From NCBI GenBank assembly GCA_013178415.1, contig JABLXA010000012.1, positions 1-64,000 on the forward strand: 64,000 nucleotides of DNA, in the 5' to 3' direction. Made by a program: the position numbers and the translations under genes. The DNA is from Bacillota bacterium (GTDB lineage Bacteria > Bacillota > SHA-98 > Ch115). Within the stretch, counting starts at the first letter, position 1, and each line of letters begins with the position of its first letter. The notes beneath the pieces are model-generated. The model was not told the origin of the DNA. It was given only the letters and a program-made list of their open reading frames with translations, and ran no database searches. Shown here piece after piece: positions 15,864-23,278 of the stretch.

Positions 15864-15938
15864 GCCGACATAGCTCAATGGCAGAGCAGCGCATTCGTAA
15901 TGCGCAGGTTATGGGTTCAAGTCCCATTGTCGGCTCCA
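15864..15938 (+). tRNA. tRNA-Thr (anticodon CGT), likely phage attachment gene
   Basis: 75 bases with encoded CCA. Acceptor stem GCCGACA pairs with TGTCGGC; T arm GGTTCAAGT; anticodon loop TTCGTAA gives CGT for threonine. It is intact, and the phage integrase gene begins 93 bases beyond its 3' end, reading towards it. This is the usual layout when a phage has integrated into a tRNA 3' end and restored it. Confidence 0.93.
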
Positions 15939-15945
15939 AAATTTC
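15900..15945. other. Probable attL region in the 3' half of tRNA-Thr
   Basis: Integrases of this class commonly cross over in the anticodon stem or T arm of a tRNA gene. The host-like repeat-rich DNA ends here and phage genes start. The core cannot be set because the matching right-end copy lies outside the window. Confidence 0.4.
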
Positions 15946-16031: not shown

Positions 16032-17192
16032 TTATTTACCAGCCTTCTTGCGCTGTTTCTTTCCCTCGATTGCTTCCTGGATTTTCCCGGCTGCCTGCTG
16101 GTCCCGGCCAGGCATCAGATGGCCATAGATCATCATAGTGGTCGAGATGTCCTTATGTCGCATACGCTCCTGTATCATCTTGGGGTGCAAACCCAAGTCT
16201 ATGAGCCAGCTGGCGTGGGCGTGGCGGAGGCCGTGGAAGGTCTCGCCCGTTATACCCCTAGACGCCATCCACTCCGGGAACCAGGAGGTGATCGAGTCCG
16301 GGTGGTGAGGGAGGCCGTCGCCCCGGTCGCATATCAGGTCAAGATCAGCCCACTGGTCCCCTTTCCTGAGCCTTCTCTTGTTCTGCTCTATGCGGTATTG
16401 CTTCAGGGCTTCGACAGTGAGCTTGGGCAAGGTGATCGTCGCCCGGCTTTCCTCGGTTTTTGGCTCTTTGAAATAGAGCCCATCCTCAGGGGTATAACCT
16501 AGCACCTGGTTTACAATCAAGATACCCCGGTCCAGGTCCACATCTTGCCATCGGAGCCCGAATATCTCTCCTCTTCTCAAGCCGCAGGTGACGGCCAACA
16601 GGATAGGAATGTAGTATTGGGTCTTTTGGGCATCTTCTAACAGGGCGTTGATTTCCTTTTGCGTCAAGGGCTTTACCCTTGTTTTGGGAAGCTTGGGCAG
16701 TTCCAGGCCGGATGCCGGATTAGACTGTATGATCTGTAGCTTCACGGCATCCTTGAGGGCCCTATGGAGCACGGCATGATGATAGTGCACTGTCGCCGGC
16801 GCAAGGGGCTCTTCATCACCCGGAGGGTCGCTCAGTTCGGTATAGAACTGCTGTATATGATAGGGACGTAGTTTGTCAATCTGCACCTGGCCGAGCTTTT
16901 GGACGATCCGCTTTATGCAATCGTTATAACGTCTCCGGGTTTTAGGACTAAGAGACCTTTTGCGCGTGTCCAGCCACTGATATAACCATTCGGCCAGGGA
17001 CATATTGGAGGGTTCAACGTAGATGCCTTTCTCTAGTTCATTGATGAGCCGGACCATCTCTTTCTCGGCGTCCCGCTTGTTACCTTTGAAACTGCGCACT
17101 ATCCTCTTACGCTTGCCGGTCGCGGGATCACGCCCGGCCTCGATTATGATAGTCCAGGATGAGTCATAGCGTTTCTCTAGGTGACCGCGCAT
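16032..17192 (-). CDS. int: Tyrosine recombinase phage integrase
   Basis: 386 residues. N-terminal arm-binding part with TIIIEAGRDPATGKRKR (AP2-like integrase DNA-binding pattern), a core-binding SAM-like domain at about 63-155 (MSLAEWLYQWLDTRKRSLSP), and a catalytic domain with R206 in CGLRRGE, K245 in EPKTEES, H320 and R323 in HGLRHAHASW, H346 in MRHKD and nucleophile Y356 in MMIYGHL. All active-site residues are present. It would integrate and, with an excisionase, excise the phage at tRNA-Thr. The gene points to the attachment site. The 249 bases upstream (17193-17441) hold no gene; they are AT-rich. Confidence 0.96.
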   Translation of the reverse strand: MRGHLEKRYDSSWTIIIEAGRDPATGKRKRIVRSFKGNKRDAEKEMVRLINELEKGIYVEPSNMSLAEWLYQWLDTRKRSLSPKTRRRYNDCIKRIVQKLGQVQIDKLRPYHIQQFYTELSDPPGDEEPLAPATVHYHHAVLHRALKDAVKLQIIQSNPASGLELPKLPKTRVKPLTQKEINALLEDAQKTQYYIPILLAVTCGLRRGEIFGLRWQDVDLDRGILIVNQVLGYTPEDGLYFKEPKTEESRATITLPKLTVEALKQYRIEQNKRRLRKGDQWADLDLICDRGDGLPHHPDSITSWFPEWMASRGITGETFHGLRHAHASWLIDLGLHPKMIQERMRHKDISTTMMIYGHLMPGRDQQAAGKIQEAIEGKKQRKKAGK

Positions 17193-17441
17193 AAAGGAAC
17201 TCTCCTTTGGTCAAACTGTTAACGTATTAATTAATTCCTGTTGCCGACAAAAATGGAAAATTATATAACTTTAGTTCAAAAATAAGGGGCGCTCCGTTTT
17301 AGATATACTGGTGAACGATGGCCTCCATAAAATCTGAGTAGCTTTTCTGTTGAAGAGCATATTATAATAGGGCACATTATTAATGACGACCGAGATTATG
17401 ACGATATCTTAATAGGGAATGGTAATACAGGAATTTAAACT

Positions 17442-17870
17442 ATGAAAGAATTCAACAGGGGGTACCGAAATCCTGTGATGAATAAGATAGATAAAGTATG
17501 CTCATCTATCCGCAAACTGAATTTACCTTTATCTCCCGAGGCTGCACAAAGCTTCGTGCTTTATGCATGCACACGATTATGGGATAATGAGAGCATCCGA
17601 TTTCTCAATGAATATACTGAACGCGTATCCATTAGAGATGATGTAGACTTTACAGCAATAGCTAAGGCAGCGCTTGAGTCCATTAAGAATAGCGAAATCC
17701 GACGTAGGCAAATCGCGCAAGAGGTAGCCAAGGTTATGTTCGAGGGTGGAATCAGTCCACCCAATATGTCTTTACATGAGTTAGAGTATATTGCCTCCAA
17801 GACAATGGAAGAACTAGAAGATTCATGTATCACTTCTGACTATGAATCCCTAGCCTTAGAACATGACTGA
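17442..17870 (+). CDS. Hypothetical protein in the AT-rich cargo block
   Basis: 142 residues, acidic, mostly helical, with no signal peptide or membrane segment and no family I recognise. The start ATG has only AGGA upstream; ATG 17478 is an alternative. It ends two bases from the end of the convergent PIN-like gene. It has the low GC content of the two genes to its right, so may have arrived with them, and might be a regulator or third component; that is conjecture. Confidence 0.55.
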   Translation: MKEFNRGYRNPVMNKIDKVCSSIRKLNLPLSPEAAQSFVLYACTRLWDNESIRFLNEYTERVSIRDDVDFTAIAKAALESIKNSEIRRRQIAQEVAKVMFEGGISPPNMSLHELEYIASKTMEELEDSCITSDYESLALEHD

Positions 17871-17871
17871 G

Positions 17872-19902
17872 TCAACGTAGAATAGGCCGCATAAAGAACC
17901 ATAGCATAGGTCCTCCTATAAGGATGAACAAAGCCAGTATGATAAACAAAGACAATCTCAACCTTCTATTTTGATTATTAGATTCCGTAAGTTGAACTTG
18001 AAGTTTAGAATTCTGGCGTCCTAATTCTTCCATGTTTGCCATTATTTCTTGTCGTTCTTGTCGTTCTCTAGAAAGCTCTTCTGAGAAAACCTGTTCCAAT
18101 CTGTCGATTTTCTCCTGCAATATCGTGTCAAGCTCAATGGATATGCGTTGCTTAACCTCTTTTTCCCGAGCTCTTCTTACCTGATCTAGCATCATATTCA
18201 ACTCTTGAAACTGTCCATATTTGTCTTGCTGAGCGCAGGGGTTTATCAAAGATTGGAAAAAGCGAGATTCCACAAATGTCCTAGCTTGATATTCCGCCTT
18301 TTCCTCGCTAGATTCCAGCATCTGAGAGGCCGGGAGTGCTGGATTATTTACGATAGATAGAAGTTCTTCTGAGTTGATCTCTTCATCAAAATCAATTGCG
18401 GCTATCCAGGATTCAACTAAGAGGCCAATATAAGAATGATATTTCTCAATCGGCATTTGAGGGGCCTCATAAGCCATTAACTCCTCAATGAAGTCGTTGA
18501 CTCTAAGGGAACAGGGAAGAGGATAAAGCTTACGATGTAGTACCATTTCGCGTTCCGCGGACGCGAGAGCCATGTCAAGAGTAAGAAACCAGATGCGGGG
18601 TCCCATTGTGTCTCCATCTGTTTCCTGCCGGAGTTCGCTTATTTCTAAGAGACATAGAGCATCATGCTCTATGACGTTAGGATGAGGAGTTTCTTTACTA
18701 CCATACCTTCTAAGTTTGTGTTCGTATAAGATAGACTTTACTTCACTTAACCTATCTTCCTCATAAGGTGGGTTTCCTTCATAAATCATAATATTTCTCT
18801 CTTCCAGCCAATACCTTGGTTCAAAGCCAGCAAAGTATGAATCGAGGAAGGGCATATCGATAGCAGATGGTGGACCCTTAATTTCAAGGAGTTCTTCTAG
18901 GATATGTGCAATACGTTTTGATTTCCGTTGGTCACGAATGGTTTCTTCAAAATTTAGCAGATCCTTCTTTACCCCGTCAATGTAGTGCTTTACTTCTTGG
19001 ATAGTCCATGTGAAAACTCCCAATTTCATGTCTAGTCTTTGCGCATCCTCAAATAGATTTTGAACGACAGTATGTCTAGGATGTTTTCTAAACATCATGG
19101 CAATTATCACGTTGCCATCTAGTATTATAGTTCGCTGTTTTAACAGCTCACTCTGGTACTTCTGAAGAGAAGGATCTATATCGAGAAGATGGGAGTAAAG
19201 GACCTTATGGTGACATATAGTGAGATACTGTTGAACGGTAGGATCCCCTGAAAGAAGGGTTTCTATAATTGCATGGCTAATCCTTGGAACCCGAAGGTCT
19301 TTTCCTCCAAATATGGAATCTAGCCGTTCTAAAAGAAACTTATTCCCTGTTATCTCTTCGTAGTTATCTTTGAAATATCTCTTCCCAGAAGACGAGTCTA
19401 TTAAAAAAGCAAGCCGAATTGCATTTTGCACGAAGATATCTTGGACCATAAGATGCGTAGCTTCAATTATAGCTCTTTCCTGTTCCATGGGAAAAATATT
19501 GTCCTTTACCTCCGCTCTATAAGCCCTCTTCACCAACTCTTCAAACTGTTTTATGGTATCATCAAGTCTACGTTTAGTTATATCAAGCTGCGTCCTGCGT
19601 TGGTCTGATAGAATAAAGAGGTGCATCTCCTCGCGATCTGTTATTGAGTTGATGCGTCCCTTTTCCCGAAGTCTATCACAGGCATCTTTTGTCCATCTTG
19701 CCTTAAACGGATTCTCATCTACGGGTAGTACTTTAGTAAAGATAGAGGTGGCAATATCGTCAGCATCGAGTGGTTTTGTAGCCTGGTAAAGTGCCAATTC
19801 TACTAACCACTCTTGTAATTCCTTTCTGGAGAGCTTTGCCCTCGGGTCCACAAAGAAAAAACATTGAGATAATATGCTTTGAATCTTCCTGGAAGCAGTC
19901 AT
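17872..19902 (-). CDS. PIN-like nuclease-domain protein with coiled coil and C-terminal membrane anchor
   Basis: 676 residues. N-terminal helical part (1-250) of unknown family. Residues about 258-450 look like a PIN domain: TIILDGNVIIAMMF (D262), FTWTIQEVKHYID (E303), HDALCLLEISEL (D414) and IWFLTLDMALASAE (D443) give the ordered acidic residues of PIN ribonucleases. Residues about 560-650 are charged and rich in Q/E/R, probably coiled coil, and 652-672 (LSLFIILALFILIGGPMLWFF) are a membrane helix at the extreme C-terminus. Its ATG overlaps the stop of the upstream membrane gene (ATGA), with GGAGG eight bases before, so the two are translated together. The likely activity is RNA cleavage at the membrane; a phage-exclusion or abortive role is inferred from the position beside the integrase. 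Confidence 0.65.
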   Translation of the reverse strand: MTASRKIQSILSQCFFFVDPRAKLSRKELQEWLVELALYQATKPLDADDIATSIFTKVLPVDENPFKARWTKDACDRLREKGRINSITDREEMHLFILSDQRRTQLDITKRRLDDTIKQFEELVKRAYRAEVKDNIFPMEQERAIIEATHLMVQDIFVQNAIRLAFLIDSSSGKRYFKDNYEEITGNKFLLERLDSIFGGKDLRVPRISHAIIETLLSGDPTVQQYLTICHHKVLYSHLLDIDPSLQKYQSELLKQRTIILDGNVIIAMMFRKHPRHTVVQNLFEDAQRLDMKLGVFTWTIQEVKHYIDGVKKDLLNFEETIRDQRKSKRIAHILEELLEIKGPPSAIDMPFLDSYFAGFEPRYWLEERNIMIYEGNPPYEEDRLSEVKSILYEHKLRRYGSKETPHPNVIEHDALCLLEISELRQETDGDTMGPRIWFLTLDMALASAEREMVLHRKLYPLPCSLRVNDFIEELMAYEAPQMPIEKYHSYIGLLVESWIAAIDFDEEINSEELLSIVNNPALPASQMLESSEEKAEYQARTFVESRFFQSLINPCAQQDKYGQFQELNMMLDQVRRAREKEVKQRISIELDTILQEKIDRLEQVFSEELSRERQERQEIMANMEELGRQNSKLQVQLTESNNQNRRLRLSLFIILALFILIGGPMLWFFMRPILR

Positions 19903-20432
19903 TGCCGCGGCCTCCTTATAGCATCATAAAACTCATCCAGAGCTTTCCTATATTGCTCTAGCATCTCAGTTTTATTCTCTCTAAGAGACTGCAATTCTCC
20001 TTCAATAATGGGTTTTGCCACCCTATCAATATAGTCCATAATCCCTTTTTCAAATCTCTTTTCCATTTCAGAACTCGCCCATATTCTGAGTGCCTTTACT
20101 CCAAAAAATGCCGTAAGAAGTCCAACTATCGCAATAAAAACCTCAATAGCATGTGTTGTTGTTTCAACGCGCTTTACAGACGATTGAAAGAAAGATTCTT
20201 GCATCTTGAGTCGGTTGTCTAGCGAATCTATCTTCTCGTTTAGACGCACCAACTCTAGCGAAAGGTTATTCATATCCAATGATGTACGCGCATTATTCAC
20301 TATGGTTGTTTGTTTCTCCTCAGCAAAGAGAAGGAAAGAGGTAGTAAGAAAAATAATTAGTAGCCCAACAAAGACAAGCAAGGCCAATGATACATTCCGT
20401 GATATTCTTCGATAGAGGCTATAATGGAACAC
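19899..20432 (-). CDS. Two-helix membrane protein, partner of the PIN-like protein
   Basis: 177 residues from GTG 20432, chosen because GGAGG sits eight bases upstream (the in-frame ATG at 20447 contains this site). TM1 is at about 15-36 (SLALLVFVGLLIIFLTTSFLLF), then a heptad-like stretch (SLELVRLNEKIDSLDNRL) and TM2 at about 94-118 (VFIAIVGLLTAFFGVKALRI), then a charged cytoplasmic-type tail (EMEKRFEKGIMDYIDRV...LREN). It could be a membrane sensor that holds or triggers the nuclease. No family recognised. Low GC content, unlike the phage genes either side. Confidence 0.65.
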   Translation of the reverse strand: MFHYSLYRRISRNVSLALLVFVGLLIIFLTTSFLLFAEEKQTTIVNNARTSLDMNNLSLELVRLNEKIDSLDNRLKMQESFFQSSVKRVETTTHAIEVFIAIVGLLTAFFGVKALRIWASSEMEKRFEKGIMDYIDRVAKPIIEGELQSLRENKTEMLEQYRKALDEFYDAIRRPRQ

Positions 20433-20529
20433 AGCACTCTCCTCCATAACAAGTCAAACTTGCCCGCTCTGCAAGAAACATATGGCTCTGATGGCAAGCC
20501 TGATGGTAGATGTTGAATATAGTCGGGTA

Positions 20530-20651: not shown

Positions 20652-21143
20652 CTAATCTTGTGAGGTTTCTCTCTCCTGAACCTTTATCCAGAGCTTGCCA
20701 TGCCCGGGGATCTCCAGAACTACTTCCTCAGGAGTAGGCCAATCCACCATATAAAGGACTCGAGTGGTAGTGCCAGGCAAAATGGGTTTATGTGGTCCAA
20801 AAGAATCGGAAGTTAATCCTTCGAAAAATTCGTGGTAATAATTGCCTTGATTTTCACCGGCCTTCCACATATTGCTTAGTTCGCCCGGGGCCAGGACAGT
20901 TATCTCGTTCCTTTTGGAATCAAAACACCAGAAGTGAGCATTACTCAAGTCCAAATCTTGGTCTGAAAAGTTAGTTATCCAAACTTCCAGGACCCATGCC
21001 AAAGGTTTTGCATGGCGTATGCATTCACCAGTTACTTTGCCGTCAGGAGTAGAGCCATATTTAATTTCAGCCCCTTGTATTGCACCTGCGAAAACGATTA
21101 GCAGTATAAACACTGATGTGGCAATTTGACAATGGCGATCCAT
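20652..21143 (-). CDS. Secreted protein with cleavable signal peptide, function unknown
   Basis: 163 residues from ATG 21143, which has GGAGG eight bases upstream. N-terminus MDRHCQIATSVFILLIVFAGAIQGAEI is a signal peptide with a likely cut after IQGA; no lipobox. The mature part (WVLEVWITNFSDQDLDLSNAHFWCFDSK...PGTTTRVLYMVDWPTPEEVVLEIPG) has the alternating pattern of an immunoglobulin-like beta sandwich, as in DUF4352-type exported proteins. It lies between the membrane PIN module and the immunity operon, so may be lysogeny-expressed surface cargo. Confidence 0.6.
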   Translation of the reverse strand: MDRHCQIATSVFILLIVFAGAIQGAEIKYGSTPDGKVTGECIRHAKPLAWVLEVWITNFSDQDLDLSNAHFWCFDSKRNEITVLAPGELSNMWKAGENQGNYYHEFFEGLTSDSFGPHKPILPGTTTRVLYMVDWPTPEEVVLEIPGHGKLWIKVQERETSQD

Positions 21144-21220
21144 ATGCCCATCCTCCATCTAATAATAACTTCATTGGACCTACTCCCAGATTTAATAAAA
21201 AGTCGGCAACCCCAGTTCTT

Positions 21221-21643
21221 TCATCGGATTACCCTATACCGCATCATCTCCACCGGCACCCCCACCCTGCCGGCAAACTGCTCCAGGGTCTCATCAATCT
21301 CGGGTTTTTGATCGCCAGCGAGTAATTCAACCGCGAACCGGTTGGCCTCATATTCTACTTTAGACTCCATAAAGGTGCATTCTGAAATGAAGAAGTACCC
21401 AGCGCCTTGCGGTGACAGTTGACGATGTCCCAGTTCGTGAGCCAAAACCAGCCGCTTATACCAATCTGGAAGGTTTGAATTGAGAACTATAACGGTTCGG
21501 TTGACAAGTTCAATTATGAGGCCTTTGATTCTTTGGAAGGGGAACTCATCCACGTCAATCCCCATAGCTTGAGCGAGACGGTAGGGGTCGCGGGTGTCAT
21601 GCTCTTGAACAATGCATTCCACGGTCTGCCTTATGTAGTCCAT
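21221..21643 (-). CDS. ImmA/IrrE-family metallopeptidase
   Basis: 140 residues from ATG 21643 (AGGTGG upstream). LAHELGHRQLS carries the HExxH zinc site, and VEYEANRFAVELL carries the third ligand region typical of ImmA/IrrE. In ICEBs1 and many Bacillota phages such peptidases cut the CI-like repressor to start induction. It is the last gene of the leftward immunity operon with the XRE repressor, though two toxin-antitoxin pairs separate the two. A role in cutting the repressor encoded at 22745 is inferred. Confidence 0.85.
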   Translation of the reverse strand: MDYIRQTVECIVQEHDTRDPYRLAQAMGIDVDEFPFQRIKGLIIELVNRTVIVLNSNLPDWYKRLVLAHELGHRQLSPQGAGYFFISECTFMESKVEYEANRFAVELLAGDQKPEIDETLEQFAGRVGVPVEMMRYRVIR

Positions 21644-21674
21644 ATAAGCCACCTGCTTGTCCAAAACTAAGGCG

Positions 21675-21902
21675 CTATTTTAATAGTCTAATGAACTCTT
21701 CAGTGGATATCTGGACATCATTGAGGATTTGGCGTAGCAGGCCTACCGGGATTTTGTCATGTATCGGAATAATGGTCCAGGCAAACGGTTCGTCTCTCTG
21801 CATTATCACATGGCTTCCTTTAGTGCGCCGGACGTATAAGCCGGCTCTTTTCAACGCGGCGATAACATCCTCTGGAGGCAAATCTCGGGGAAGTTTGCTC
21901 AT
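21675..21902 (-). CDS. hicA: HicA-family mRNA interferase toxin
   Basis: 75 residues. Pattern MSKLPRDLPPEDVIAALKRAG, then RRTKGSHVIMQR with the catalytic histidine, then TIIPIHDKIPVGLLRQIL is that of HicA toxins, which cut mRNA. Its start overlaps the hicB stop codon (ATGA). Gene order here is hicB then hicA. Confidence 0.92.
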   Translation of the reverse strand: MSKLPRDLPPEDVIAALKRAGLYVRRTKGSHVIMQRDEPFAWTIIPIHDKIPVGLLRQILNDVQISTEEFIRLLK

Positions 21903-22129
21903 GCTGTCTCTATCTTAACATTAAGAGCGTCAACCTCTATATCCGGTGGGAAAGGACGATCGTCTTCTGCTAGGCATTCTAGATAAAGTTGTATAGCCTC
22001 GCGGACTCGCTGCAAGGCTTCTTCGCGTGTCCGTCCGAAAGAATGACATCCTTTAAGTGCGGGCACAGTAGCTATATAGCAACCATTTTCATCCGCTTCA
22101 AGAATGACAGTATATTTCAATTCTTCCAT
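21899..22129 (-). CDS. hicB: HicB-family antitoxin
   Basis: 76 residues. YTVILEADENGCYIATVPALKGCHSFGRTREEALQRVREAIQLYLE is the HicB fold with partial RNase-H-like topology. No C-terminal DNA-binding domain is present, so autoregulation would need another factor. AGAGGT precedes the ATG. It neutralises HicA by direct binding. Confidence 0.92.
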   Translation of the reverse strand: MEELKYTVILEADENGCYIATVPALKGCHSFGRTREEALQRVREAIQLYLECLAEDDRPFPPDIEVDALNVKIETA

Positions 22130-22215
22130 CGGGCAGACCTCTTTTCGCTTGGCTGTGCCCTTATTATATGTATGCTACGGTCGACATCGCAATTAACCCT
22201 CTCTCCCAGGCTTAA

Positions 22216-22491
22216 CTAATAATCAAAGTCTCCTTTGGGACCAAATTCCAGGATTCGTATTTCTCTCTTCTCTATCAAGATGGTAAATTTCAGGCGATAG
22301 CGCCCCACCCTGCGACGGTAGTAGCCGGGTTTCCCTTTGATTGTCTCAATATCGCCTCCGAATGGGTTAGAAGCCATATTTTCCAGGATATTAATGATTT
22401 TTCTTTGCCATCTGGTTTCAAGTCTTTCGAGATACTTGGCTGCCTGCTTATCAAGGATTATATTAAATTTTGAGGGTTCTCTTGAGTTCAT
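22216..22491 (-). CDS. RelE/ParE-superfamily toxin
   Basis: 91 residues. FNIILDKQAAKYLERLETRWQRKIINIL, NPFGGDIETIKGKPGYYRRRVGRYRLKF and a closing EIRILEFGPKGDFDY match the RelE type: the GYYRRRVGRYR strand holds the basic catalytic residues. RelE relatives cut mRNA on the ribosome. The start overlaps the antitoxin gene by 29 bases. Confidence 0.87.
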   Translation of the reverse strand: MNSREPSKFNIILDKQAAKYLERLETRWQRKIINILENMASNPFGGDIETIKGKPGYYRRRVGRYRLKFTILIEKREIRILEFGPKGDFDY

Positions 22492-22714
22492 GCAATGTTA
22501 CCCCCCGGCCGGCATCTATCTCTGCATTCGCCTGCTCGAAAGCCTTTTCTTCTTCCTCTGTGGCCGGAGGGCCTTCGGGGACGAAGTGGAATTTCCCGTC
22601 TAACTCGATCCATTCGCCCGGCGGGGCTATAACAATTCTCTTGAGGAACTCTAATTTATCTCCAGAGGGTAAGGCCGAAAATTCCTTGGCAACCTTTTCG
22701 ATGGGCAACTCCAT
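22463..22714 (-). CDS. Antitoxin of the RelE-type pair
   Basis: 83 residues, acidic. AAGGAGGT sits eight bases before the ATG. The C-terminal part EKAFEQANAEIDAGRGVTLHELKRTL is typical of RelB/Phd-like antitoxin tails that wrap the toxin; the N-terminus (KVAKEFSALPSGDKLEFLKRIV) resembles small plasmid-type antitoxins. It precedes and overlaps the toxin gene as expected. Confidence 0.8.
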   Translation of the reverse strand: MELPIEKVAKEFSALPSGDKLEFLKRIVIAPPGEWIELDGKFHFVPEGPPATEEEEKAFEQANAEIDAGRGVTLHELKRTLKI

Positions 22715-22744
22715 AGGAGTACCTCCTTCCTACTGAAAGGACTG

Positions 22745-23176
22745 TTATTTGGTATTATCATTCTTTTCCCTCTTTCTTCGCTCCCGTTCCCATTTCACCT
22801 TCAAGTAGGTCATAATATCTTCTTTGTCCTCATCTGTGAGGGGCGCTCCATCGAAGTGGACGTTGGCGGTCTTGAGGAACTCCTCCAGCTCGACGTCCGT
22901 AGGTGGGGTGTCGCGATACCACCAGGGGGGAGTGGAGGGGTCGTGCGACGCAGGATCATCTACCCGCCCTACCAAATAGTCAACGGTAACCCCGAAGAAG
23001 TCAGCAAGACGGGCAATTGTCTCTGCGTCCGGCAGTCGTTTCCCCTGCTCCCACATGCCAACTGCGGCATCAGTAACGCCTACAAGGTCACCCACTTCTT
23101 TTTGGGTGACCTCTTTTTTCTCTCGTAATGCGCGGAGCCTTTCGGCAAATGTCCCTCGTTTATTAGATGTGGGCAT
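22745..23176 (-). CDS. CI-like XRE-family repressor
   Basis: 143 residues from ATG 23176. Residues about 8-65 are a helix-turn-helix of the XRE type (LRALREKKEVTQKEVGDLVGVTDAAVGMWEQGKRLPDAETIARLADFFGVTVDYLVGR, with the recognition helix near 35-45). The rest is short, acidic then basic, with no LexA/CI autoprotease domain, which fits control by the ImmA-type peptidase at 21221. The gene reads away from a Cro-like gene across three matching palindromes. It is first in an operon with both toxin-antitoxin pairs. Confidence 0.88.
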   Translation of the reverse strand: MPTSNKRGTFAERLRALREKKEVTQKEVGDLVGVTDAAVGMWEQGKRLPDAETIARLADFFGVTVDYLVGRVDDPASHDPSTPPWWYRDTPPTDVELEEFLKTANVHFDGAPLTDEDKEDIMTYLKVKWERERRKREKNDNTK

Positions 23177-23225
23177 TATCTTCACCACCAACAGTATACC
23201 ACATGGTGTTGGGTATAAAATATCA

Positions 23226-23240
23226 ACAACAAAAAGTTGT
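23226..23240. promoter_or_regulatory. Operator O1
   Basis: ACAAC-AAAAA-GTTGT, a 15-base palindrome with 5-base centre, nearest the repressor gene; likely covers the leftward promoter region. Confidence 0.7.
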
Positions 23241-23248
23241 TTTAGGGG

Positions 23249-23278
23249 TTGACACAACATAAAGTTGTGTTCTATAAT
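23249..23278 (+). promoter_or_regulatory. Rightward early promoter (PR-like)
   Basis: TTGACA (23249-23254), 18 base spacer, TATAAT (23273-23278), both perfect. Operator O2 fills the spacer and O3 lies just downstream, so repressor binding would block RNA polymerase. Confidence 0.85.
23252..23270. promoter_or_regulatory. Operator O2
   Basis: ACACAAC-ATAAA-GTTGTGT, palindrome of 19 bases with the same 15-base core as O1, lying inside the PR-like promoter between -35 and -10. Confidence 0.75.

Follow-up and report, generated by a model that had tools for sequence, protein, structure and literature searches.

The window analyzed here, a 64,000-nucleotide stretch of a Bacillota genome (contig JABLXA010000012.1, positions 1 to 64,000), carries a prophage of approximately 50.8 kb whose right end lies slightly beyond the window. 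The features discussed below are as follows.

15864–15938: tRNA-Thr.
15890–15939, plus strand: 50-bp attachment repeat, at the 3′ end of tRNA-Thr.
16032–17192, minus strand: tyrosine integrase of the prophage (PF00589, E = 6.6e-23).
17442–17870, plus strand: convergent acidic ORF, 142 aa from ATG 17442.
17872–19902, minus strand: predicted membrane-anchored PIN-fold protein, 676 aa. Residues 1–250 form a helical N-terminal region; residues ~255–475, the predicted PIN domain, hold D262, E303, D414, and D443, E303 and D414 being separated by a long helical insert; a helical region, a coiled coil (566–645), and a membrane helix follow.
19899–20432, minus strand: two-helix membrane partner, 177 aa, GTG start.
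20652–21158, minus strand: secreted 168-aa protein, encoded between the pair and M78.
21221–23260: M78/HTH immunity region.
21221–21664, minus strand: M78 (ImmA-like) metalloprotease, matching the CapP model (E = 7.6e-11).
21675–22129, minus strand: HicA/HicB pair, in the same cargo stretch.
22216–22491, minus strand: ParE-like toxin with a small ORF upstream, both within 22216–22714.
66641–66690 of the contig, outside the window: second, identical copy of the attachment repeat.

The element is an integrated phage with attachment sites and structural genes. Its right part encodes a terminase, a portal, and head morphogenesis, tape measure, and distal tail proteins, and the resident prophage is a tailed phage whose tape measure protein has 2124 aa. 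The first-pass annotation had described an AT-rich pair of genes between integrase and immunity genes, in a position where phages carry cargo, and this description fits what we found. GC content is 41–44% over 17–21 kb vs. approximately 51–60% in the host flank, and the pair lies between the integrase and the M78/HTH region, inside a prophage with defined ends. CapP, whose model the neighboring M78 protein matches, is a protease that controls some defense operons. Elsewhere in the prophage, the early phage region (33001–37000) has a strong skew of G over C (0.2–0.37). Scans for terminators and promoters returned no excess over shuffles.

The acidic residues noted in the 676-aa protein are all present at the exact positions given earlier, and the coiled coil and C-terminal membrane helix reported with them were likewise recovered. 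The only strongly hydrophobic stretch of the protein is its C-terminus (approximately 645–675, in windows starting at 645–657), and a long helix is predicted from residue 566 onward. The two relatives share just 32% identity over this terminal helix, yet it is hydrophobic in both, which supports a protein anchored in the membrane by its C-terminal helix.

The partner gene starts at GTG 20432, just downstream of a GGAGG motif. This was the start proposed originally, and it is preferable to a longer ORF from ATG 20447, which we rejected given that the start in the relative coincides with GTG 20432. The earlier description of a two-helix membrane protein joined to the PIN gene also stands: there are two hydrophobic helices (approximately 9–40 and 91–119), and the 4-nt ATGA overlap between the two genes is the same in both genomes. 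From hydropathy and charge only, the short N-terminus is predicted to be inside, a loop of approximately 55 residues with a coiled coil outside, and a charged, helical tail of approximately 60 residues inside. In PADLOC, the partner has only weak matches (“Effector 4TM” and “Csx1/Csm6”), which we set aside as confined to coiled-coil and membrane segments. Residues 69–145 of the partner resemble the T4-like tail-length protein gp29 near a membrane segment (34% over 88 columns, E = 8e-3). Tape-measure mimicry was considered on this account, but the similarity was reproduced neither with the partner of the relative nor with the tape measure protein of the prophage itself, and we treat it as chance.

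Only one relative was found in the collections searched. It lies on contig DUSO01000156.1 (L001; apparently also present as G278), a Bacillota metagenome-assembled genome from another genus of the same family. No further relatives were found in IMG/VR, which was scanned with all three proteins, or in 50,697 phage records, 72,556 plasmids, or 398 genomes of the phylum. The window and relative proteins are 67% (PIN protein), 77% (partner), and 81% (convergent ORF) identical, and the DNA at 16984–20478 is 78% identical in a single alignment. The slot upstream of the pair holds different genes in the two genomes, the secreted 168-aa protein here vs. a 334-aa protein in L001 (835–1839) with cysteine clusters and a terminal membrane helix, while the M78 gene beyond it is again 80% identical and thus stays next to the pair in both. 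Because the 78%-identical DNA runs through partner, PIN gene, and convergent ORF, the next gene is wholly different, and the M78 gene is kept, the three ORFs constitute one conserved block. The swapping of the upstream gene between the two prophages is as expected of cargo. The 78%-identical block also takes in the start of the integrase gene (~70 codons, 16984–17192), and the remainder of that gene is far more diverged from L001; this split suggests recombination inside the integrase gene. L001 also carries a ParE-like gene at 43–321.

The convergent ORF had been left out of the original two-gene description. From the start common to the relative (approximately 17475) it encodes approximately 131 aa. 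The ORF is acidic (pI 4.8), and its stop lies 1 nt from the PIN stop, a gap that is the same in the relative. It has a dN/dS of 0.25, and since all three ORFs are conserved with dN/dS values of 0.20–0.25, they are more than chance reading frames. A UvrD-like match (E = 0.009) was below the cut-off and was set aside; no significant family match for this ORF was found in Pfam, NCBIfam, PHROGs, or PADLOC. Thus, the pair is real, but the count of two probably is not: the module appears to comprise three conserved genes, with the convergent ORF, we infer, as one of them.

None of the module proteins has a significant match in Pfam, NCBIfam, PHROGs, or PADLOC, and PADLOC-DB 2.0.0 in particular returned nothing significant for the PIN protein, in agreement with the earlier statement that the pair matches no known defense system. 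The possibility raised at the outset that homologs might prove to be core metabolic genes outside mobile DNA did not materialize; the sole homolog is found at the equivalent site, next to a phage-type integrase. The module is real, conserved, and outside catalogued defense systems.

Whether the 676-aa protein contains a PIN domain required several lines of evidence. In the Pfam search, the window protein matched no PIN family, and the protein of the relative gave weak matches to PIN_3 (E = 0.08) and PIN (E = 0.13), both below cut-offs. Profile–profile comparison with PIN_3/VapC, represented by 28 sequences from genomes of the same phylum, gave a score of 33.9, compared with 18.3 for the best of 60 column shuffles, 18.2 for the reversed profile, and 11.4 and 8.4 for the protein’s own ends. 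D262 and E303 fall in register with PIN columns (D in 28 of 28 sequences; 16 E and 12 D, respectively). The second half of the domain gave no signal by profile alone, and the D414 column match, no better than chance (40 of 60 shuffles), was rejected as independent evidence. D414 and D443 nonetheless follow in PIN order and are conserved in both relatives. D443 is at a gap position in the alignment, and in the structure model it follows a predicted strand, as does the fourth acid of PIN proteins. The four-residue acid pattern of the PIN superfamily is therefore present, with the qualification that the D414 column match alone is not significant.

A structure model of residues 236–480 reached a pLDDT of 81 and a pTM of 0.79, from an alignment that included PIN rows and is hence partly circular; the helical insert was modeled with good confidence though the PIN rows hardly cover it. 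The best PDB matches in Foldseek were VapC proteins, PAE0151, EST1A-PIN, and PRORP, and the best viral match was a siphovirus “PIN like domain” protein, every one of these with an E-value above 0.001. A full-length model from the two sequences, made without PIN rows, was unusable (pLDDT 38). Structure prediction had been named beforehand as a check, and rather than a non-PIN outcome it yielded a domain with a PIN fold that matches PIN proteins, as had been proposed, albeit in a partly circular model. Since the E-values all exceed 0.001 and the alignment contained PIN proteins, we take profile and model together as support for the PIN alpha/beta fold and not as proof. Independent support comes from selection: dN/dS is 0.06 at residues 251–320 vs. 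0.16–0.28 elsewhere in the protein, and this peak of purifying selection agrees with the PIN reading. Kinship with DUF4935/PIN_8 was considered because there, too, the E and the third D are separated by a long helical insert, but it was rejected, as there is no profile similarity (score of 12.8, below the 60-shuffle maximum of 26.1). PIN-TPR-GreABC had no member among the 119 phylum genomes searched. Overall, the evidence supports assigning the protein to the PIN superfamily and to nothing narrower, as a putative nuclease.

Comparison with known systems shows partial likenesses. The predicted PIN core resembles VapC/PIN_3 (PF13470) and PIN (PF01850), with D262 and E303 in register and VapC structures as the best matches. 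However, the protein is 676 aa long, with a helical N-terminal region, an insert, a coiled coil, and a membrane helix, and in place of VapB there is a membrane protein; a VapC-sized toxin with a VapB-like antitoxin was not found. RexAB, Kiwa, and similar systems are two-gene sets with a membrane protein, and RexAB likewise lies by a prophage immunity region, but those systems are not known to include a PIN nuclease, and none of the PADLOC models of such membrane-plus-effector pairs matched. A PIN domain is essential for anti-phage defense in DS-3 and DS-5, and in DS-5 a second protein, probably not an antitoxin, is required as well (PMC13092281). DS-3 differs from our module in being a single protein with a split PIN domain and DS-5 in having a DUF5830/AcrIF4-like partner (PMC13092281); neither system is known to be membrane-anchored. 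Finally, SNIPE is a membrane-bound GIY-YIG nuclease that defends at injection and spares prophage induction (PMC13190303). It shares with the predicted layout of the PIN protein a single membrane anchor holding a cytoplasmic nuclease, but the nuclease fold is different, the anchor is N-terminal, and SNIPE is a single gene with DUF4041; neither GIY-YIG nor DUF4041 was found in the module by Pfam. We take SNIPE as an analogue in mode of action, and membrane-coupled nuclease defense as the working analogue of the pair.

With these comparisons in mind, we tentatively favor, at somewhat below even odds given a single relative and a sequence-level basis, a pair that acts as an envelope-triggered exclusion or abortive system, carried by the prophage as lysogenic-conversion cargo and consisting of a PIN-fold nuclease and a two-helix membrane partner. 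The PIN core, the membrane helices, the gene overlap, the conservation, and the prophage position come out of the analysis itself, and the remaining steps are proposed. The C-terminal helix and coiled coil would tether the putative nuclease to the cytoplasmic membrane, on its inner side. Translation of the partner would be coupled to that of the nuclease on one shared mRNA; the partner would bind the nuclease in the membrane, keep it off, and relay a signal once another phage engages the envelope or passes through it. The freed nuclease would then cut nucleic acid; RNA is the likeliest target, since this is what VapC and other bacterial PIN proteins cut. The infection would be stopped via exclusion or cell shutdown, and the host would benefit from the exclusion of rival phages. 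The nuclease activity, the interaction of the two proteins, the trigger, and the defense benefit are all inferred. A fuller version, which we consider rather unlikely, is a prophage defense of a new type with three genes, in which the membrane-tethered PIN nuclease and two-helix sensor are joined by the acidic convergent ORF as a regulator and infection is recognized at the envelope.

The same genes could instead be an addiction pair that keeps the prophage in the lineage, with the PIN protein as toxin and either the partner as a membrane antitoxin or the convergent ORF as an antidote. Gene order and the ATGA overlap are typical of antitoxin–toxin operons, HicAB and ParE-like genes lie alongside, and the conserved 131- to 142-aa ORF ends 1 nt from the PIN stop. 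However, the PIN protein is approximately five times the size of VapC and is predicted to be anchored in the membrane, and no DNA-binding or known antitoxin domain was found in the partner. A survey of type II toxin–antitoxin systems also reported none with a membrane component (PMC2701414), which weakens this explanation; we consider it unlikely. Alternatively, the PIN domain may cut phage DNA during injection, with specificity coming from its membrane position and the partner placing it at entry sites. There would be no suicide, and the resident prophage, never being injected, would be spared. SNIPE, a membrane-anchored nuclease, acts in this way and spares prophage induction (PMC13190303), and the resident prophage, with its 2124-aa tape measure protein, is itself a tailed phage. 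Against this stand the lack of the GIY-YIG nuclease and DUF4041 of SNIPE in the Pfam search, the mostly RNA-cutting activity of well-studied bacterial PIN proteins, and the gp29 similarity (E = 8e-3) that was not reproduced, and we regard entry cutting of DNA as quite unlikely. Least probable is a role for the phage itself, in which the membrane-bound protein would cleave host or phage RNA in a regulated way during lysogeny or lysis, with nothing directed against other phages: the block does adjoin the immunity region and is conserved with an M78 protease, and M78/ImmA-type proteases regulate lysogeny, but its low GC content and its restriction to a single bacterial family point to accessory cargo, and neither IMG/VR nor the 50,697 phage records contained a relative.

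It is only very recently that nucleases working from the membrane, at the site where phages enter, were recognized (SNIPE, 2026). If the envelope-triggered reading is true, a version built on a PIN fold, with a membrane partner of its own, would mean that this strategy has multiple origins, and membrane-coupled effectors would then include a PIN nuclease. The module is also an example of cargo, in prophages of a bacterial order with little sampling, that goes unseen by current defense models.
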